This document shows positions 15 through 13,757 of a stretch of DNA of 64,000 nt, in pieces. The position numbers and the translations under genes are program-made. The notes under the pieces are model-generated. The model saw nothing but the letters and a program-made list of their open reading frames with translations. It was not told the origin of the DNA and did not search any database. The stretch is taken from assembly GCA_905182575.1 (NCBI GenBank), contig CAJJCA010000011.1, forward strand, positions 1-64,000, in the 5' to 3' direction. Each line of letters starts with the position of its first letter. Position 1 is the stretch's first letter. The DNA is from an uncultured Flavobacteriaceae bacterium (GTDB lineage Bacteria > Bacteroidota > Bacteroidia > Flavobacteriales > Flavobacteriaceae).

Positions 15-22
15 TATTTTTG
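15..22 (+). promoter_or_regulatory. Candidate Bacteroidota -7 element (TATTTTTG) before lpd
   Basis: The octamer matches the TAnnTTTG -7 consensus of Bacteroidota and lies 21 bases before the lpd ATG. The partner -33 TTG would fall outside the window, so only half the promoter can be judged. Confidence 0.35.
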
Positions 23-43
23 AATCAAATAAAAAATAAGATT

Positions 44-1445
44 ATGCAATCTTTTGACGTTGCCGTTGTTGGATCAGGACCTGGAGGCTATGTAGCCGCA
101 ATCAGATGTGCTCAGTTGGGCATGAAAACAGCATTAATAGAAAAATATAAAACCTTAGGAGGAACTTGCTTGAATGTAGGTTGTATTCCCTCAAAATCTC
201 TTCTAGACTCTTCTCATCATTATGAGGATGCAGTGAAGCATTTCGATGGACATGGAATAGAAATTCCCGGAGAAATAAAAGTTAATCTTGAGAAAATGAT
301 TTCCCGGAAGGCAGCTGTTGTAGAACAGACCACAAAGGGAATTGACTTTTTGATGGATAAAAATAAAATCACTGTATTTCAAGGATTGGGCTCTTTTAAG
401 GATGCAACAACCTTGACCATTAAGGGGGATCAAGAGCTAGAAATTACTGCAAAAAACATCATCATAGCAACTGGATCAAAACCAGGGAGTTTGCCTTTCA
501 TAACACTTGATAAAGAAAGAGTTATTACCTCAACAGAAGCTTTAAAACTTAAAGAAATTCCAAAGCACTTGGTTGTAGTGGGTGGAGGTGTAATTGGATT
601 AGAGTTGGGTCAGGTTTACCGTCGATTGGGTGCCGAGGTTTCTGTAATAGAATATGCAGACAGGATAACTCCTGTTATGGATGCCGCACTTTCAAAAGAA
701 TTGATGAAAGTGATGAAAAAACAAAAAGTTAAGTTTTACTTATCCCATCAAGTAAGCAATGTTACCCAGAAATGGAAACCTTGTAACGGTTCTGGCAAAA
801 GATGCCAAAGGCAACGAAGTTTCTTTTGAAGGAGACTATTGTCTTGTATCCGTTGGCAGACGTCCTTATACAGACAATTTAAATGCAGAAGCAGCGGGTG
901 TGAAAATCACCGATCGTGGACAAGTTGAGGTGAACGATCACATGCAAACTACTGCACCGAATGTCTATGCCATTGGAGATGTTGTTCGTGGTGCAATGTT
1001 GGCGCATAAGGCTGAAGAAGAAGGAGTGATGGTTGCTGAAATACTTGCAGGTCAAAAGCCTCATATTGATTATAATTTAATTCCAAACGTTATTTACACT
1101 TGGCCGGAAGTCGCTGCTGTTGGGAAAACAGAAGAACAATTAAAAAGTGCTGGTATAAATTATAAAAGCGGTCAATTCCCAATGCGTGCGCTGGGACGTT
1201 CCAGAGCCAGTGGAGACTTAGATGGTTTTGTTAAAATACTTGCCGATGCGACTACCGATGAGGTTTTAGGTGTTCATATGATTGGCGCACGAGCTGCCGA
1301 TCTAATCGCCGAAGCTGTTACCGCAATGGAATTTAGAGCTTCAGCCGAAGACATTGCAAGAATGAGTCACTCGCATCCTACCTATGCCGAAGCAGTCAAA
1401 GAAGCCGCGCTTGCAGCTACTGGAGATCGCGCTCTGCACATGTAA
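44..1445 (+). CDS. lpd: Dihydrolipoyl dehydrogenase (E3), frame interrupted once
   Basis: This FAD flavoenzyme reoxidises dihydrolipoyl groups of the 2-oxoacid dehydrogenase and glycine-cleavage complexes with NAD+. Visible in order are the FAD-binding GSGPGGYVA, the redox disulfide site GGTCLNVGCIPSK, the NAD-binding GGGVIGLELG, and the C-terminal catalytic HSHPTYAE. The ORF track starts at a TTG at 20, but the family N-terminus begins at the ATG at 44 (MQSFDVAVVG). The reading frame moves by +1 at about 762-770: the first ORF diverges after VSNVT, and the second frame resumes at RNGNLVTV with no loss of family sequence. An extra C in ACCCAG would explain it. The product is certain; the break is probably a sequence error. 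Confidence 0.93.
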
Positions 1446-2783: not shown

Positions 2784-3842
2784 TTATAAAATTTCTCCTA
2801 ATAACTCAATATAAATATCAATGGCCTCCTCAATCTCATTAACAAAAATATATTCATCTGCTGTGTGAGATCTGGTGGACAATCCCGGTCCCATTTTTAG
2901 AGAAGGACAGTCCAGTGCTGCTTGATCAGAAAGTGTAGGAGATCCATAGGTGGTTCTACCTAATTTAATTCCGGATTGAATCAATTCATGGTGGACATCA
3001 ATAGAAGAGGACCCCAATCTCAATGACCTGGGAGTTAATTTACAAGGGGCTTCTTTAATTAATATTTCAGCAGCTTCCTCGTTGGTGTATTTATCATTTA
3101 CTCTTACGTCAACAACAATATTTACTTTTGCTGGAATGACATTGTGTTCTTTCCCTGCTTCAACTTGCGTTACGGTCACCTTAACGGGGCCTAGGAAATC
3201 TGATTTTTTATCAAAAGAAAAATCTCCAAACCACTCCAAAACTTTAGGTAACTTCATAATGGCACTGTCATTGTTTTGATGTGCAGCATGACTTGCAGTT
3301 CCTTCGATAACTCCATCAAAAACAATCAAACCTTTTTCAGCTATTGCCATTTGCATTTCCGTAGGTTCACCCACGATGGCCAGATCTATCTTGGGGAGTT
3401 TAGACAATAATCCTCTCAAACTATTTTCCCCAGCAGTTTCTTCCTCTGCACTTGCTGCGATGAGGAGATTGTATTTTAATTCTTTATGATTGTAGTAATG
3501 GGTAAATAAAGCGATTAAGGAAACCAATGCCCCTCCCGCATCGTTACTTCCCAATCCATAGAGTTTCCCATCAATAACTTCTGCTTTGTAGGGGTCTCTT
3601 GTGTAAGCGGCATTGGGTTTCACGGTGTCATGGTGGGAATTTAAAAGGAGGGTGGGTTTACTCGAATCATAATATTTATTTAAAGCCCAAACGTTATTTC
3701 CATCTCTATTAAACTTTACTTCATTCAGCACAAACCATTGCTCGATTCTATCAGCAGTTTTATTCTCAGCGCTCGAAAACGACTGAATACCGATTAAATC
3801 CTTTAACAATGCAATTGCTTTTTCTGTCAACTCATTTTTCAT
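2784..3842 (-). CDS. argE: M20 family N-acyl-ornithine deacylase (ArgE-like)
   Basis: This zinc amidohydrolase of the M20 peptidase family removes the acyl group from N-acyl-ornithine or N-acyl-citrulline. Metal-site motifs are visible: LLNSHHDTVKP (His/Asp), GLGSNDAGGA (bridging Asp), SAEEETAGENS (catalytic and ligand Glu), GEPTEMQM, and the late His in STRSHTADEY. It is 352 residues and sits one base after argB in the arg operon. Because the carbamoyltransferase of this operon acts on acylated ornithine, this enzyme most likely acts on acyl-citrulline. Whether the acyl group is acetyl or succinyl cannot be read from this protein alone. Confidence 0.88.
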   Translation of the reverse strand: MKNELTEKAIALLKDLIGIQSFSSAENKTADRIEQWFVLNEVKFNRDGNNVWALNKYYDSSKPTLLLNSHHDTVKPNAAYTRDPYKAEVIDGKLYGLGSNDAGGALVSLIALFTHYYNHKELKYNLLIAASAEEETAGENSLRGLLSKLPKIDLAIVGEPTEMQMAIAEKGLIVFDGVIEGTASHAAHQNNDSAIMKLPKVLEWFGDFSFDKKSDFLGPVKVTVTQVEAGKEHNVIPAKVNIVVDVRVNDKYTNEEAAEILIKEAPCKLTPRSLRLGSSSIDVHHELIQSGIKLGRTTYGSPTLSDQAALDCPSLKMGPGLSTRSHTADEYIFVNEIEEAIDIYIELLGEIL

Positions 3843-3843
3843 A

Positions 3844-4617
3844 TTATAATATCAAGGTAGTATGATTGTCATTTCCATTAATCATTTTTGGGGAGCCAAT
3901 TTTAACCATTTTCACGCCATTACTTAACGCATCAAAACAATTGTCAATTTTAGGAATCATTCCTGCATTGATGATTCCTTTTGATTTGAGGTCAGCATAG
4001 TTTGACGGCTGAATGGACTCAATGACACTTTGCTCGTCTTCAATGGATCTGAGTACTCCGTTTTTTTCAAAACAATACCACAAAGATACTTCAAAATGTT
4101 TAGACAAAGCTTTTGCAATTGATGCTGCAATCGTGTCTGCATTGGTGTTTAGTAACTGCCCTTTTTCATCATGAGATATGGCACAACATACAGGGTTGAG
4201 CCCATTGTTTATAAGTAATTGAAATAGGTTTTCATTAACAGCAGTAATGTCTCCAACAAAACCATAATCTATTTTATCAACAGGTCTTTTTACGGCCGAT
4301 ATCGCGTTGCCGTCTGCTCCAGAAAGTCCGATCGAGTTACAGTTCAAAGCTTGTAGTTGGGCTACAATATTCTTGTTGATTTTACCACCATAAAGCATGG
4401 TGATGATTTCTAAGTTGGCAGCATCTGTGATTCTTCTGCCTTCTATCATTTGAACAGGAACATCAAGTTGATGTGCCATTTCGGTGGCTTTTTTTCCGCC
4501 TCCATGGACCAAAATTTTTAATCCCTCAAGCACTGAGAAATCTTTTAAGAAAGAAGCTAAAACTTTAGCGTCTTCAATGACATTTCCACCAATTTTGACA
4601 ACCGAAAGCTTATCCAT
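3844..4617 (-). CDS. argB: N-acetyl(acyl)glutamate kinase
   Basis: It phosphorylates the gamma-carboxyl of N-acylglutamate, the second step of arginine synthesis. The amino-acid-kinase fold is recognisable from the N-terminal VVKIGGNVIED (phosphate-binding lysine and glycines) and LVHGGGKKATEMA (substrate loop). The 257-residue length fits non-arginine-inhibited ArgB forms, which lack the N-terminal helix of feedback-inhibited enzymes. Its start overlaps the 3' end of argF' by 8 bases, suggesting translational coupling. Confidence 0.93.
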   Translation of the reverse strand: MDKLSVVKIGGNVIEDAKVLASFLKDFSVLEGLKILVHGGGKKATEMAHQLDVPVQMIEGRRITDAANLEIITMLYGGKINKNIVAQLQALNCNSIGLSGADGNAISAVKRPVDKIDYGFVGDITAVNENLFQLLINNGLNPVCCAISHDEKGQLLNTNADTIAASIAKALSKHFEVSLWYCFEKNGVLRSIEDEQSVIESIQPSNYADLKSKGIINAGMIPKIDNCFDALSNGVKMVKIGSPKMINGNDNHTTLIL

Positions 4618-5557
4618 TTTCCAAAAGTTGTTTTAAGACGGCTTGTGCCGCATAAGTTCTGTTTTCTGACTGTTTTATAACCAAAGAATTTGGGCTGTCC
4701 AATACACCATCAGCCGCTACAATGTTCCTTCTTATCGGAAGGCAATGCATAAACTTTCCATTGTTTGTCAATTCCATTTTTTCTTGAGTAAGCATCCATT
4801 CATCATCGGTTCTGAGTATTTGTCCATATTTTTCATAAGAACACCAATTCTTTGCATACACAAAGTCAGCTCCTTTTAATGCTTCTTCCTGGTTGGTGAC
4901 ACATTTAATTCCTTTAGTAATTTCAGGATTCAATGCGTAACCCTCCGGATGCGCAATTACAAAATCTGCCTCCATGTAGTTCATCATTTTTGTAAATGAA
5001 TTTCCAACGGCATGGGGAAGTGCTTTTGGATGCGGCGCCCATGTCAAAACGACTTTGGGTCTATGAATGGTTTGGTGTTCTGTAATTGTAATGGCATCTG
5101 CCAATCCTTGCAAAGGATGCGCAGTAGCACTTTCCATGTTGATAATGGGTACACTCGCATATTTGGCAAAGCTTTTTAATACAATTTCAGCCTCATCTTT
5201 TTCCTTATCCGTAAGTGAAGCAAATGCTCGAATGGCAACCATATCGCAATACTGAGAAACTACTGCAGCAGCTTCTTTTACGTGTTCCGACCTGAGTCCA
5301 CTCATTTTGGTTCCATCCTCAAATTCTAGCGCCCAAGCTTCATTACTGAAATTCATAACCATGGTATGAACCCCCAAGTTTTGAGCAGCTTTTTGAGTGC
5401 TCAACCGAGTTCTTAAACTGGGATTAAAGAACAACATCCCCAAAGTCTTACCCTTTCCAATGGAATCAAATCTAGTAGCATCTTTTTTTAATTCAATTGC
5501 GCTGGCAAGTGTTTTATTAAAATCTGGTAAATCTGCTAAGGTGATAAAATGCTTCAT
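4610..5557 (-). CDS. argF': N-succinyl/N-acetylornithine carbamoyltransferase (ArgF')
   Basis: It transfers a carbamoyl group to an N-acylated ornithine, the variant step used by Bacteroidota and Xanthomonas in place of ordinary ornithine transcarbamylase. The carbamoyl-phosphate site reads FFNPSLRTRLS (residues about 43-53), followed by AWALEFEDGTKMSGLRSEH and later HCLPIRRN. In this family, as I remember it, the residue before EH at about position 90 decides substrate: Glu92 in Xanthomonas acetylornithine enzymes, Pro90 in Bacteroides succinylornithine enzymes. Here it is Ser90, which lacks the Glu and therefore favours succinylornithine. It overlaps argD by 4 and argB by 8 bases. Confidence 0.92.
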   Translation of the reverse strand: MKHFITLADLPDFNKTLASAIELKKDATRFDSIGKGKTLGMLFFNPSLRTRLSTQKAAQNLGVHTMVMNFSNEAWALEFEDGTKMSGLRSEHVKEAAAVVSQYCDMVAIRAFASLTDKEKDEAEIVLKSFAKYASVPIINMESATAHPLQGLADAITITEHQTIHRPKVVLTWAPHPKALPHAVGNSFTKMMNYMEADFVIAHPEGYALNPEITKGIKCVTNQEEALKGADFVYAKNWCSYEKYGQILRTDDEWMLTQEKMELTNNGKFMHCLPIRRNIVAADGVLDSPNSLVIKQSENRTYAAQAVLKQLLENG

Positions 5558-6675
5558 AATAATTCTTCTAATGCTTCAAAAAGTTGATCAAAATGCGCCT
5601 TTTGAACGGTCAAAGGAGGTAAGATTCTCAATACGTTCTTATTGCTACTTCCTCCAGTAAAAATATGTTTTTCATAAATAAGCCTTTTTCTAAGTGGTCC
5701 CACTTCAAAGTCAAATTCCAAGCCCAGCATGAGTCCTCTTCCCTTTATTTTAACGCCATTTAACTTTTTGGCAAGTGATCTAAAATAGGCTTCCATGGTT
5801 TTGGCATGGTTTTGTAAGTTTTCATTTTTGAGAATATCCAAAACAGCAATTGAGGCAACACAGGCCAAGTGATTTCCTCCAAATGTTGTACCGAGCATCC
5901 CGTATTTGGCCTTTATGTCAGGATGCACCAAAATACCTCCAATTGGAAAACCATTTCCCATTCCTTTGGCCATTGTGATGATGTGCGGTTGAATGTTGTT
6001 TTTTTGAAAAGCAAAGAAAGTCCCAGATCTTGAAAATCCAGATTGAACCTCGTCAGCGATTAAACAGGTATTGTATTGATTGCACAAACTTTCCATTTGA
6101 AAAACAAAATCATCTTCAGGCATGTCGAGCCCTCCGACCCCTTGAATGGGTTCGAAAATGACAGCACAAACATCTCCTTTTTTTAGTTCTTCCTCCAGCG
6201 CTTGCGAATCATTGAAAGCCAAAAATGTAACTTCTTGTTGCTGGTTTAACGGTGCATTAATATTTCTGTTGTCCGTCGCGGCAACCGCGGCACTGGTTCT
6301 TCCATGAAAAGCATTTTTAAATGCAATCACTCTTTTTTTTCCTGTCTGAAAGGAAGCCAGTTTCAAGGCATTTTCATTGGCTTCGGCACCCGAACTACAC
6401 AAGAACATTTGATAGTCGTGTAAACAAGAATGATTCCCAATTTTATCTGCCAATTCTTGCTGCAAAGGGTTGATAATTGCATTGGAATAAAAGGCGATTT
6501 TATGCAGTTGTTTTTCAAGTTGCTCCACATAATGCGGATGACCATGGCCTACCGAAATGACCGCATGACCTCCATAGAGATCAAGGTATTCGGTCCCTTT
6601 CTCATCATAGACATGAACATCTTTAGCCCTTACTGGACAGACATCGTACAAAGGATATACATCAAATAATTTCAT
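5554..6675 (-). CDS. argD: N-acylornithine aminotransferase
   Basis: This PLP-dependent class III aminotransferase converts N-acylglutamate semialdehyde to N-acylornithine. Seen are CSSGAEANENALKLA (phosphate cup), the DEVQSGF cofactor-contact motif, and the Schiff-base lysine in TMAKGMGNGFPIGG. The protein is 373 residues, shorter than enteric ArgD (about 406), as is common for the phylum. Its start overlaps the end of the proC-like gene in an ATGA arrangement and its end overlaps argF' by 4 bases. Other class III aminotransferases share these motifs, but the operon position makes ArgD by far the best reading. Confidence 0.93.
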   Translation of the reverse strand: MKLFDVYPLYDVCPVRAKDVHVYDEKGTEYLDLYGGHAVISVGHGHPHYVEQLEKQLHKIAFYSNAIINPLQQELADKIGNHSCLHDYQMFLCSSGAEANENALKLASFQTGKKRVIAFKNAFHGRTSAAVAATDNRNINAPLNQQQEVTFLAFNDSQALEEELKKGDVCAVIFEPIQGVGGLDMPEDDFVFQMESLCNQYNTCLIADEVQSGFSRSGTFFAFQKNNIQPHIITMAKGMGNGFPIGGILVHPDIKAKYGMLGTTFGGNHLACVASIAVLDILKNENLQNHAKTMEAYFRSLAKKLNGVKIKGRGLMLGLEFDFEVGPLRKRLIYEKHIFTGGSSNKNVLRILPPLTVQKAHFDQLFEALEELL

Positions 6676-7466
6676 TGAATTTTTATTTCATTTATTTTTT
6701 CAAAGGAGGCCATCAAACCTTTAATCAACGAAGAACTCAGCCCTTGGTGTTCCATTTCGTTTAACCCGGTGATGGTACAGCCTTTTGGGGTAGTAACCTT
6801 GTCAATTTCTTTTTCAGGATGCGAGTTGGTTTCGATAAGAAGACTTGCTGCCCCTAGCGCTGTATGCATGGACATCTGCATCGATTCATCGGCGTCAAAT
6901 CCCATTTGAACACCACCTTGCGTGGTCGCCCTGATTAACCTCATCCAGAAGGCAATTCCACTGGCACAAATCACCGTTGCTGCTTGCATTCTGTCTTCTT
7001 CAATTTTTATTGTCGTACCCAGTCCATTAAAAATGGCTTCTGCGATGGCAATTCTTTTTTCTCCGACCACATTTGAACACAAGCAAGTCATTGATTTCCC
7101 AACCGAAATAGCTGTATTCGGCATGCTTCGAATAATTGGGTATTTAGCATCTAATTTATCTTCCATTCTTCCGATACTGAAACCAGTTATTGCAGAAATA
7201 AGCACGTGCTTATCATTTAATACCTCTTTAATGTCATCCAAGATGGAATCAAATTGTGAAGGTTGTACCGTAAAAATGATAATGTCAGAATTTTTCACAG
7301 CTTCTTTGTTGTCAGATGTGATTTTAACATTGTTGTATTCTTTCCAGTTTTCAATTGAACTGAGGTCTCTTTTTGTGAGGTAAAGTGAAGTGTAAGTATT
7401 GTTATAAACCAATCCTTTGGCAATACTTAAACCTAAATTCCCTGACCCTATGATGGCTATTTTCAT
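6672..7466 (-). CDS. proC: Pyrroline-5-carboxylate reductase
   Basis: It reduces 1-pyrroline-5-carboxylate to proline with NAD(P)H. The N-terminus carries the Rossmann loop AIIGSGNLGLSIAKGL; then MPNTAISVGKSM, the family's substrate-domain motif; and near the C-terminus the P5CR signature region TTPKGCTITGLNEME. It is 264 residues. Its place between argC and argD links proline and arginine synthesis in one transcript and is consistent with flavobacterial arg operons. It overlaps argD by 4 bases and follows argC by 21. Confidence 0.92.
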   Translation of the reverse strand: MKIAIIGSGNLGLSIAKGLVYNNTYTSLYLTKRDLSSIENWKEYNNVKITSDNKEAVKNSDIIIFTVQPSQFDSILDDIKEVLNDKHVLISAITGFSIGRMEDKLDAKYPIIRSMPNTAISVGKSMTCLCSNVVGEKRIAIAEAIFNGLGTTIKIEEDRMQAATVICASGIAFWMRLIRATTQGGVQMGFDADESMQMSMHTALGAASLLIETNSHPEKEIDKVTTPKGCTITGLNEMEHQGLSSSLIKGLMASFEKINEIKIQ

Positions 7467-7487: not shown

Positions 7488-8447
7488 TTAAAATATACTT
7501 GCTTTTAATCTTAAACCCAAATCTTCCTCCCAACCCATGATGAGGTTCAGATTCTGAATGGCTTGACCAGATGCTCCTTTAATGAGGTTGTCTATCACAG
7601 AGGTAATTAATAATTGATCTTCAAACTGGTGCAAATGAATAGCACAATTATTGGTATTAATGACTTGTTTTAACGCAACTTCATTTTCTGATACGTGCGT
7701 AAAAGGATGTGATTTATAAAAATCCTTATAAATGGTTTTTGCGTCTTCTAAATTTCCATCAAAGAAAGTATAGCAACTGGCAAAAATTCCTCTGGTAAAA
7801 TCACCTCTTTGCGGGAGGAAATATAGCTTAGGATTGTCTAAGGTTTCACCTATTTCTCCCAAATGTTGGTGGGTAAAAGGCTTGTACCAAGACAAGTTGT
7901 TGTTTCTCCAACTAAAATGGGAACTTGCACTTAAACCAACGCCTGCTCCTGTACTTCCAGTGGTGGCATTTATATGAACTGGGTTGGTGATCATGCCCTT
8001 TCTTGCCAAAGGTAATAATGCCAGCTGAATAGCTGTAGCAAAACAACCCGGATTCGCAATGGCAGTCGCCTTTTCTATGGTCTCTCTTTGTAATTCTGGA
8101 AGCCCGTAAACAAAATTATAACCTTGAAAAGAAGCATCATTTTTTAATCTAAAATCATTGCTTAAATCAATAATGATTGTTGCTTCCGAAAATTTATTTT
8201 CTTTTAAAAACCCTGCCGATTTTCCATGACCTACACACAAGAAAACCACATCAACTGCTGGGTTAATCTTATCTGTAAAATTAGGAGTTTCTGTCCCCAA
8301 TAAATCAACATGTGTGTCATGTAGTGGTGTACCGGGTCGGGTGGTGCTGTAGATAAAATCTAACTCCAAAGCAGGGTGGTGTAGCACCAATCTGATTAGC
8401 TCTCCGCCTGTATACCCTGAACCTCCTATTATTCCAACTTTTTTCAT
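7488..8447 (-). CDS. argC: N-acetyl(acyl)-gamma-glutamyl-phosphate reductase
   Basis: It reduces N-acylglutamyl phosphate to the semialdehyde with NADPH. The N-terminal GIIGGSGYTGGELIRL binds NADP; the catalytic cysteine is in AIANPGCFATAIQLALLPL; and TGSTGAGVGLS is the conserved segment after it. The 319-residue length is normal for the short type. The start codon abuts the argG stop, and the order argG-argC-proC-argD is continuous on the minus strand. Confidence 0.94.
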   Translation of the reverse strand: MKKVGIIGGSGYTGGELIRLVLHHPALELDFIYSTTRPGTPLHDTHVDLLGTETPNFTDKINPAVDVVFLCVGHGKSAGFLKENKFSEATIIIDLSNDFRLKNDASFQGYNFVYGLPELQRETIEKATAIANPGCFATAIQLALLPLARKGMITNPVHINATTGSTGAGVGLSASSHFSWRNNNLSWYKPFTHQHLGEIGETLDNPKLYFLPQRGDFTRGIFASCYTFFDGNLEDAKTIYKDFYKSHPFTHVSENEVALKQVINTNNCAIHLHQFEDQLLITSVIDNLIKGASGQAIQNLNLIMGWEEDLGLRLKASIF

Positions 8448-9634
8448 TATTTATTATTTACGTGTTGGTAAATTTTATTTTGATTCGAAATGATCTTGAT
8501 AAAGCCTTTTGCATCGTCTGCGGTCCAACCTTTGTTCATTTCTCCATAACTGCCAAAAGAGGCGTTCATCAAATCGTGTGGAGAATCGATTCCCTCCAAT
8601 TCAAATCGATAGGGGTGAAGGGTTACCATTACCCTTCCAGTTACATTTTCCTGACTGCTCGTTAAAAAGGCTTCTAAATCTCTCATTACTGGATCAAGAT
8701 ATTGCCCCTCGTGAAGTAACATTCCATAGAAACTACCGGACTGTTCTTTTTGAAACAACTGCCATTTGCTGAGCGTATGTTTTTCTAAAAGGTGGTGTGC
8801 TTTTATAATGATTAAAGGTGCAGCGGCTTCAAAACCTACTCTTCCTTTAATTCCAATAATTGTATCTCCTACATGAATTTCTCTTCCAATTCCAAACTGC
8901 TTAGCTAGTTCTTGTAGTGCCATGATATTGTTAACGGCAGTGTCTTTTTTCCCATTTAAACCAACCAGTTCCCCTTTTTCAAAATTAAGGGTCACTTTTT
9001 CAGGAGTATTTTTTTGAACCTGACTAGGATAGGCCGATTCAGGTAAGCTTTTATCTGATGTTAAGGTCTCTTTTCCTCCCACACTTGTTCCCCAAAGACC
9101 TTGGTTGATTGAATACTGAGCTTTTTCCCAAGCCATTTCGACTCCTTGTTCTTTTAGGTATTCGATTTCAGCTTCTCTCGAGAGTTGTTGATCTCTGATG
9201 GGCGTAATGATTTCTATCCCTGGGGCTAATACCTGAAAAATCAAATCAAACCGTACCTGGTCATTTCCAGCTCCAGTGCTTCCATGAGCAATGGCGTCTG
9301 CTTTTATTTCTTTTGCATAAGCGATTATTTCGAGTGCCTGAACGATCCTCTCTGCGCTTACGGAAAGTGGATAGGTTCCATTTTTAAGTACGTTTCCAAA
9401 AACCAAGTATTTCACGACTTTGGAATAAAAAGATTTCAAAGCGTCGATTGATTTATAAGAAAAAGCACCCATTTTTAGCGCTTTGGCTTCCATGGTTTTA
9501 ATTTCATCAGAAGAAAACCCTCCTGTATTTACACTCACCGCGTGAATGTCAAATCCTTCTTGTGATAGTTTTTTAAGGCAATAGGAAGTGTCTAAACCTC
9601 CACTGTATGCCAGTACCAATGTTTTATTCGCCAT
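8447..9634 (-). CDS. argG: Argininosuccinate synthase
   Basis: It joins citrulline and aspartate using ATP. The N-terminal PP-loop LAYSGGLDTSYCLKKL identifies it at once, followed by AHGSTGAGNDQVRFD and TPIRDQQLSREAEIEYL typical of ArgG. The protein is 395 residues and uninterrupted. It is the second gene of the arg operon; its ATG lies 11 bases inside the upstream acetyltransferase gene. Confidence 0.95.
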   Translation of the reverse strand: MANKTLVLAYSGGLDTSYCLKKLSQEGFDIHAVSVNTGGFSSDEIKTMEAKALKMGAFSYKSIDALKSFYSKVVKYLVFGNVLKNGTYPLSVSAERIVQALEIIAYAKEIKADAIAHGSTGAGNDQVRFDLIFQVLAPGIEIITPIRDQQLSREAEIEYLKEQGVEMAWEKAQYSINQGLWGTSVGGKETLTSDKSLPESAYPSQVQKNTPEKVTLNFEKGELVGLNGKKDTAVNNIMALQELAKQFGIGREIHVGDTIIGIKGRVGFEAAAPLIIIKAHHLLEKHTLSKWQLFQKEQSGSFYGMLLHEGQYLDPVMRDLEAFLTSSQENVTGRVMVTLHPYRFELEGIDSPHDLMNASFGSYGEMNKGWTADDAKGFIKIISNQNKIYQHVNNK

Positions 9635-10184
9635 TTGAATTATTTTTCAATTTATTTTTATCTTTTTGAGGATCATAAAGCATGCCTGTGCAAAGACACA
9701 TACTTCTTTCTGTACGGGTCAATACGTCATAGTTCTTGCAGGTCTGACAGCCTTTCCAGAAATCCGGATCATCGGTTAATTCAGAAAAGGAAACAGGTTT
9801 ATAACCCAGTTCATAGTTGATATTCATCACCGCCATTCCAGTAGTGATTCCAAATATTTTTGCGTCGGCATATTTTTTTTTTGAAAGCCTAAATACCCTT
9901 TGTTTAATTTTTTTAGCAAAAAGTTTTCCCCTGTGGTCTGGGTTCACGATCAAGCCCGAATGCGCAACATATTTTCCATGCCCCCAGACTTCGATGTAGC
10001 AAAATCCAGCAAATTGATCATTGTCTAATGCAATAATCGCATTTCCAGATTCCATTTTTTTACTGATGTATTCAGCGCTTCTCCTGGCAATACCAGTTCC
10101 TCTGACTTTTGCCGATTCACCGATACAAACGCTAATCGCCTTTGAGTGTTTAATATGTCTTGAGTTGGCAATAATAATTTCCAT
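9624..10184 (-). CDS. GNAT acyltransferase heading the arg operon (likely acylglutamate formation)
   Basis: This GNAT-family acyltransferase of about 186 residues is the first gene of the arg operon. The acyl-CoA binding region reads SGLIVNPDHRGKLFAKKIKQ, matching the GNAT motif A (xxxRGxG/A). The C-terminal part has four cysteines in the pattern CQTCKNYD...CLC, perhaps a metal site. Position suggests that it supplies N-acylglutamate, the committed substrate, since no argA or argJ is in the operon. Whether it uses acetyl-CoA or succinyl-CoA is unknown. The ORF track starts at TTG 10193; I prefer the ATG at 10184 (MEIIIANSRH). Confidence 0.8.
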   Translation of the reverse strand: MEIIIANSRHIKHSKAISVCIGESAKVRGTGIARRSAEYISKKMESGNAIIALDNDQFAGFCYIEVWGHGKYVAHSGLIVNPDHRGKLFAKKIKQRVFRLSKKKYADAKIFGITTGMAVMNINYELGYKPVSFSELTDDPDFWKGCQTCKNYDVLTRTERSMCLCTGMLYDPQKDKNKLKNNSNGE

Positions 10185-10235
10185 TATTGACAAATTTAAA
10201 AAAGTTTAAAAAAAATAGAAAGATTCTTGGAAAAC

Positions 10236-11799: not shown

Positions 11800-13757
11800 A
11801 TGAGAAATTTACTACTACTTTACACGATTCTGTTTGCAACAATACTTAAGGCTCAAGAGCCTGTGACCTGGGTGACGGGGTTTGAGAAAGTATCAAACAC
11901 CGAATATGTTTTGAGTTTTGAGGCGTCAATTATCGAAAATTGGCACCTCTATGCGCTCGATTTACCAGAAGATGGTCCATTGCCAACAGAATTTGTTTTT
12001 AAAAATGAAGGGGTTAGCTTATGAATTGGTCGGGGCGATCACAGCGAGTGAAAGCATCACTGAATTTGATCCTATTTTTGAAATGGAGCTTTCTTATTTT
12101 GATAAAAAAGTATCCTTCCGTCAACGAATCCGATTGCTTAAACCCGATACCAGTCAAATTACGGGAGAAATCAATTACCAAGCCTGTGATGATAAAGTCT
12201 GTATTTTTAGGGAAGAATCTTTTGATTTTAATCTGTCCTCCGATATAAAAACCCATTGCAGAAAAAACATACACGCGGCAAGTAAATTAAAATCAGAAAA
12301 ATTAAAGATTAACTTTAAAGACAAATCGCTACTCGATCAAAACACGAATAAGGGAGCGGGGAGTGGTTATTTTAATTTGTTCTTATTGGGTTTTCTTGGT
12401 GGAATTATTGCTTTGCTCACTCCCTGTGTTTTCCCCATGATTCCGCTCACGGTTTCTTTTTTCTTAAAACAAGCGACTAGAAAACAAGGAGTGATCAGAG
12501 CGGTTCTTTATGGATTCTTTATATTGATTATCTATTTGATTTTAAGTTTGCCCTTCCATTTTCTCGACGCGGTAGATCCACAAATATTAAATAATATAGC
12601 GACGAATATCGTCTTAAACGTCGTCTTCTTTTTGGTGTTTATCTTTTTCGCTTTTTCCTTTTTTGGATATTACGAATTAACCTTACCCAGTGGATGGGGC
12701 AATCGGTCGGACACAGCAGCATCAGGTGGTGTTGTCTTGGGAATCTTTTTTATGGCACTCACTTTGGCAATCGTTTCGTTTTCTTGCACGGGTCCAATTT
12801 TAGGGTCATTACTTGCAAGTTCTTTGTCTTCTGACGCGGGGGCGATGCAACTGACAGTTGGGATGGGTGGTTTTGGCGCAGCATTGGCTTTGCCATTTGC
12901 CTTATTTGCCGTTTTCCCCAATGCACTCCAATCGATTCCTAAATCGGGGGGATGGATGACCAAAATCAAAGTGATTTTAGGCTTTCTAGAATTGGCACTG
13001 GCTTTAAAATTCCTTTCGAATGCTGACTTGGTTGGACATTGGGGACTTTTAAAAAGAGAAATATTTATAGGCATTTGGTTAATCATTTCCCTATTGCTAT
13101 TTCTTTATTTGATGGGTTGGCTTAGGTTTCCGCATGACGCTAAAGGAGAAAAAATTAAACCCATTCAAAGAATACTGGCTGTTTTGGCTTTAATTTTTTC
13201 GGTTTATCTCGGTTCAGGATTAGGGAAGGATCAAAAGGGACAATTGTCCTTACTTAGTGGTTTTCCACCTCCAGTTTTTTACAGTATCTATGAATTAGAA
13301 AGCGATTGTCCTTTGGCTTTAAATTGCTTTAAGGATTTTGAAGCAGGACAGCAATATGCCTTAAAAACTAACAAACCCATATTGCTTGATTTTACAGGTT
13401 GGGCATGTGTGAATTGCCGAAAAATGGAAGAAAATGTTTGGTCGAAAGGAGAGGTTTATCGAATGCTCAAAGATGAATTCATCATCATTTCTCTATACAT
13501 CGATGACCGAACGGAGTTGGCCTGAAACCTATCAATTTGATTTCCAATATCCCAATGGAAGGATCAAGACCATCAATACCATAGGGGAGAAGTGGGCGAC
13601 ATTTCAAAGCTTAAATTTTGAGAGTGCCTCTCAACCTTTTTATGTCCTAATGAGTCCGGACAATGTTTTGCTCAATCAGCCCATTCAATATACCGACAAG
13701 GTGACCTATGAAAACTGGTTAAAGCAAGGATTACAGAAGTTTAAAACCCTAAAGTAG
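11800..13757 (+). CDS. dsbD: Thiol:disulfide interchange protein DsbD-like, frame interrupted twice
   Basis: This membrane protein carries electrons from cytoplasmic thioredoxin to the periplasm. It begins with a signal peptide (MRNLLLLYTILFATILKAQ), then a DsbD-alpha/DsbC-like domain with the cysteine pair in ACDDKVCIF, eight or so membrane segments including TPCVFPMIPLTVSFF and SFSCTGPILG, and a C-terminal thioredoxin domain with WACVNCRKME. Two +1 breaks split it: near 12010-12016 (GGGG for GGG restores NEGLAYELVG) and at 13519-13520 (GG for G restores DDRTELPETYQF). All three segments are well conserved, so a complete protein of about 650 residues is likely encoded in the true sequence. 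Confidence 0.88.

Follow-up and report, generated by a model that had tools for sequence, protein, structure and literature searches.

Succinyl and acetyl routes to arginine

Most Bacteroidota make arginine through succinyl intermediates, in a pathway that includes a GNAT protein and an ArgE-like enzyme (GapMind 2020, PMC7311316). The pathway genes are described in Bacteroides thetaiotaomicron, and mutant fitness data come from that species, Echinicola and Pedobacter (PMC7311316). The same work treats the GNAT BT3761 as the probable N-succinylglutamate synthase and the M20 enzyme BT3549 as the candidate N-succinylcitrulline desuccinylase (PMC7311316); a second study named the Bacteroidota GNAT ArgA2 (PMC9026213). 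GapMind's marker for the route is position 90 of the carbamoyltransferase, where Ser is named as succinyl-specifying and where 61 of 69 Bacteroidetes have S, P, A or V (PMC7311316). A family review lists Glu92, Asn185 and Lys302 as the discriminating positions of the N-acetylornithine enzyme (AOTCase); at these sites the N-succinylornithine enzyme (SOTCase) has A/S/P/V/Q, P and V/I/E, respectively (PMC4581275). Single mutants are described as having one specificity switched to the other, with no broadening (PMC7311316).

We analysed a window of 64,000 nucleotides, the whole stretch of flavobacterial DNA under study, which contains a carbamoyltransferase gene that we call argF'. Its nearest described counterparts are the SOTCases of B. 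fragilis and B. thetaiotaomicron (1js1, 2fg6/2fg7; BT3717), which resemble it in their catalytic residues, small residue 90, Pro181, and pathway and operon partners, but have Pro90, Arg178 and Ile at the Lys302 site where argF' has Ser, Lys and Val. The Xanthomonas campestris AOTCase (3kzc) shares the knotted-class fold by homology, and its E92S mutant (3l05) carries the same Ser at the specificity site; unlike argF', the wild type has Glu92, Asn185 and Lys302, a fused NAGS/NAGK and acetylated intermediates. We conclude, from sequence comparison, that argF' very probably encodes an anabolic SOTCase of the knotted class, inside a nine-gene arginine operon that probably runs on succinylated intermediates. 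The succinyl inference, with residue 90 as its marker, is already known for Bacteroidota and is not new.

A nine-gene arginine operon

Nine co-directional genes, all on the minus strand, run from 10193 down to 1483 in the order GNAT, argG, argC, proC, argD, argF', argB, argE-like, argH, and either overlap or lie no more than about 20 bases apart. The first, at 9624–10193, encodes a GNAT of the ArgA2 type (Pfam Acetyltransf_1, 6.2e-5), a probable N-succinylglutamate synthase, whose relatives found by tblastn, at 52–61% identity, are in Bacteroides, Persicobacter and Bernardetia. Profile matches above cut-off were obtained for argG (argininosuccinate synthase, 8447–9634; TIGR00032, 285.5 bits), argC (N-acyl-gamma-glutamyl-phosphate reductase, 7488–8447; TIGR01850, 298 bits), proC (pyrroline-5-carboxylate reductase, 6672–7466; TIGR00112, 209 bits), argB (probable N-succinylglutamate kinase, 3844–4617; TIGR00761, 196 bits) and argH (argininosuccinate lyase, 1483–2766; TIGR00838, 339 bits). 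The argD product (acylornithine aminotransferase, 5554–6675) matched Aminotran_3 and scored 343 bits with TIGR00707, below the curated cut-off of 410. The argE-like gene (2784–3842) encodes an M20 deacylase, a probable N-succinylcitrulline desuccinylase, which aligns by phmmer (4.3e-104) over almost its entire length with the solved structure 3ct9, which we take to be BT3549. Thus both the GNAT and a BT3549-like deacylase are in the operon, and the gene set is that published for B. thetaiotaomicron. The Bacteroidota succinyl pathway as described (PMC7311316; ArgA2 in PMC9026213) has the same GNAT, ArgB, ArgC, ArgD, SOTCase, M20 desuccinylase, ArgG and ArgH; here, by comparison, they form one tight operon that includes proC, in a flavobacterial draft genome.

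Although proC lies within the operon, neither a proA above cut-off nor a clear proB was found in this genome, which is 1.97 Mb in size and about 71% complete; 11 of 81 flavobacterial loci, many of them Lutibacter, have proBA near the operon. A search of the same genome for ArgJ gave no match. Such absences are weak evidence at this level of completeness. Only two carbamoyltransferase-domain proteins were present in the genome, the argF' product and PyrB, the latter named from its sequence.

Elsewhere in the window, a dihydrolipoyl dehydrogenase gene (20–1445, plus strand) is split into two overlapping open reading frames in different frames, 20–829 and 759–1445, a frameshift that is either real or an assembly error. 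A DsbD-like gene (region 11918–13757, plus strand) appears to be a second frameshift of this draft genome, its reading frame 11918–13525 being seemingly carried on in another frame by 13434–13757.

Specificity residues of the carbamoyltransferase

The argF' reading frame (4610–5557, minus strand) starts with ATG, encodes 315 amino acids and has no internal stops; the opposite, plus strand is stop-rich. Three B. fragilis SOTCase sequences were by far its top PDB matches, at about 339 bits (phmmer E-values of 1.5e-100 to 1js1/2g7m and 2.1e-100 to 2fg6), as against about 211 bits for the Xanthomonas AOTCase in its wild-type form, which the E92S mutant 3l05 outscored. The product has the transcarbamylase motifs SLRT (SxRT), HPLQ (HPxQ) and HCLP (HxLP), as well as APHPKALP, the knotted-class proline-rich loop. 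With the ornithine carbamoyltransferase (OTCase) profile TIGR00658 it reached only 144.8 bits, under the cut-off of 280.85.

Residue 90 is Ser, in the context KMSGLRSEHV, encoded at 5288–5290 on the minus strand, codon 90 from the ATG at 5557. Residues 1–241 align with B. fragilis 1js1/2fg6 free of gaps, so Ser90 corresponds exactly to Pro90 of the B. fragilis SOTCase, and the engineered Ser of 3l05 falls in the same column, which holds Glu92 in the wild-type Xanthomonas enzyme. A separate MAFFT alignment placed Pro of Bacteroides finegoldii and Glu of Xanthomonas sacchari in that column. The two methods therefore agree with the original prediction, which had set this Ser opposite Bacteroides Pro90 and Xanthomonas Glu92, and neither gives argF' a Glu at this site. 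The sequence, the alignments and the operon are direct observations. The rule used in that prediction, that small residues in place of the Glu make a succinyl enzyme, also holds: Ser, Pro, Ala or Val at site 90 makes the enzyme specific for the succinyl substrate (PMC4581275, PMC7311316).

All three members of the AOTCase triad were sought and none was present; argF' has Ser90 at the Glu92 site, Pro181 at the Asn185 site and Val280 at the Lys302 site. Because each is of the succinyl type, the reading of a succinyl substrate is well supported. Of the residues that anchor the succinyl group in B. fragilis (His176, Arg178, Arg278), argF' has His176, Lys178 and Arg276, and it also has Glu142 and Lys236, substrate residues common to both enzyme types. 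Glu142, His176, Lys236 and Arg276 were invariant in all 222 surveyed loci. Lys178 is a conservative change from the B. fragilis Arg and is the residue of the Xanthomonas acetyl enzyme. We considered it as a sign of an acetyl enzyme and set it aside, since most of the loci surveyed in the phylum (182 of 222) likewise have Lys and residue 178 thus discriminates poorly.

We infer the substrate of argF' from homology and from the published mutants. In the proposed scheme, the GNAT would transfer a succinyl group onto glutamate, ArgB would phosphorylate N-succinylglutamate, ArgC would reduce the phosphorylated product, and ArgD would transaminate the product of ArgC to N-succinylornithine. The SOTCase would then carbamoylate N-succinylornithine to N-succinylcitrulline, from which the argE-like M20 enzyme would strip the succinyl group, leaving ArgG and ArgH to complete arginine. 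Ser90 would leave the space that Glu92 occupies in the acetyl enzyme, so that the succinyl arm could enter, and its carboxylate would be held by the basic residues His176, Lys178 and Arg276.

For each of the other operon enzymes, the acyl group handled is assigned more weakly. The claim that the whole operon works on succinylated intermediates fits the genetic data published for three Bacteroidota, the closeness of the argE-like protein to 3ct9 and an extra Arg in ArgB (below). Its ArgE part needs correction: the deacylase should act after carbamoylation, on N-succinylcitrulline, and not on N-succinylornithine.

Residue 90 across Bacteroidota

We surveyed 222 loci, combining close relatives with a phylum-wide sample; as our own sequence was counted twice, these represent 220 orthologs. 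Residue 90 was Ser in 111, Ala in 59, Val in 36, Thr in 5, Pro in 4, Gln in 3, Gly in 1 and Ile in 1, and Glu was found in none of the 220. A first survey, of close relatives, had Ser or Ala in 111 of 111 loci, showing that Ser90 is no chance occurrence. With Ser or Ala fixed in close relatives, Ser90 is ordinary for the lineage and not specific to this genome; the lack of Glu in the 220 orthologs favors the succinyl assignment.

There is an apparent coupling, in these sequences, between the specificity sites 90 and Lys302: of the 36 sequences with Val90, 30 have Glu at the second site, where Ser90, Ala90 or Pro90 is nearly always accompanied by Val or Ile. Three loci of one family (L110, L122 and L129, from large genomes of 6.4–7.2 Mb) combine succinyl-type Ala90 with an acetyl-type residue, Lys, at the Lys302 site. 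Lineages further removed within the phylum (L178–L185 and L198–L227) have Ala, Val, Thr, Pro or Gln at site 90 and keep the ArgB Arg described below; no GNAT match was found in the stretches examined for these loci, some of which were short.

Column scans of ArgB and ArgC

If the whole operon runs on succinyl intermediates, the acyl pocket of its ArgB should differ from that of acetyl-type ArgB. We aligned 207 Bacteroidota ArgB sequences with a small set of 11 from outside the phylum: E. coli, Xanthomonas (a bifunctional-type kinase), Ilyobacter, Sinorhizobium, Leptospira, Monoglobus, Streptomyces, Collinsella, Qipengyuania, Acetoanaerobium and Methylobacterium. At a cut-off of our choosing (the same residue in more than 90% of the Bacteroidota sequences and a different one in at least 70% of the others), a single column emerged, that of Arg61. 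Inside Bacteroidota it holds 206 R and 1 K; outside, 8 L, 1 N, 1 H and 1 Q. The single Lys (GKRIT) is at locus L128, which is also the sole locus with Gly90 in its carbamoyltransferase. Looser cut-offs gave three more columns, none bringing charge into Bacteroidota. Arg61 corresponds to Leu65 in E. coli numbering, within the acyl-substrate loop, and adjoins Arg66, a known substrate-binding residue.

It is quite possible, if slightly on the doubtful side, that Arg61 binds the succinyl carboxylate. We hold just as tentatively the fuller proposal, that in doing so it serves as the specificity switch of an N-succinylglutamate kinase, the ArgB counterpart of position 90. As judged by the column scan, Arg61 supports the succinyl pathway independently of argF', and it is a candidate marker of N-succinylglutamate kinase with one phylum as its basis. 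Since Bacteroidota share ancestry, it could mark lineage and not substrate. Our paper search, whose reach did not include the B. fragilis ArgB thesis that GapMind cites, found no account of ArgB Arg61.

A similar scan of ArgC gave several differences between Bacteroidota and outside sequences. Of 140 Bacteroidota sequences, 137 have HQH in place of the catalytic HRH motif, with Gln at residue 194, and 132 have Arg in place of Leu at the nearby residue 214. The HRH motif binds the substrate phosphate and carbonyl, so both changes could relate to phosphate binding and not to the acyl group, and Gln194 and Arg214 were not counted as support for the succinyl pathway.

Alternative substrates and annotation

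The product of argF' might be bifunctional, with useful rates on both acyl-ornithines, the first enzyme of the pathway setting the acyl group. A small residue 90 alone is no bar to the smaller substrate, and Lys178 and a GNAT of putative acyl specificity leave room for this. We nonetheless consider it quite improbable, because the published single mutants are described as switching specificity and not as widening it (PMC7311316), and because small residues at site 90 and ArgB Arg61 are kept phylum-wide, suggesting a single acyl group.

Automatic annotation names an N-acetylornithine carbamoyltransferase, this being the label of the NCBIfam equivalog PRK04523, which argF' matches at 319.5 bits, above its cut-off of 288; public records carry similar acetylornithine-type names on Bacteroides and Parabacteroides proteins. 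A relative of the Bacteroidota GNAT, Cabys_1732, has been reported, from unpublished data, as an N-acetylglutamate synthase. That argF' is such an enzyme, in an operon with acetylated intermediates, is nevertheless very improbable: this match, Cabys_1732 and Lys178 favor it, but each of the three discriminating residues is that of a succinyl enzyme, the same acetylornithine name is borne by a Bacteroides protein that has Pro at the site, and ArgB has Arg61, which none of the acetyl-type kinases in our set has.

Under the favored assignment of argF' as a SOTCase, the N-acetylornithine carbamoyltransferase label is probably wrong throughout Bacteroidota. The analysis indicates as much for the argF' product and for related proteins phylum-wide, and brings this flavobacterial lineage under the succinyl assignment. 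If the ArgB marker is true, the acyl group could be read from a second gene, even in drafts that lack the carbamoyltransferase, and a genome could be typed as acetyl or succinyl from two enzymes, by a single residue in each.
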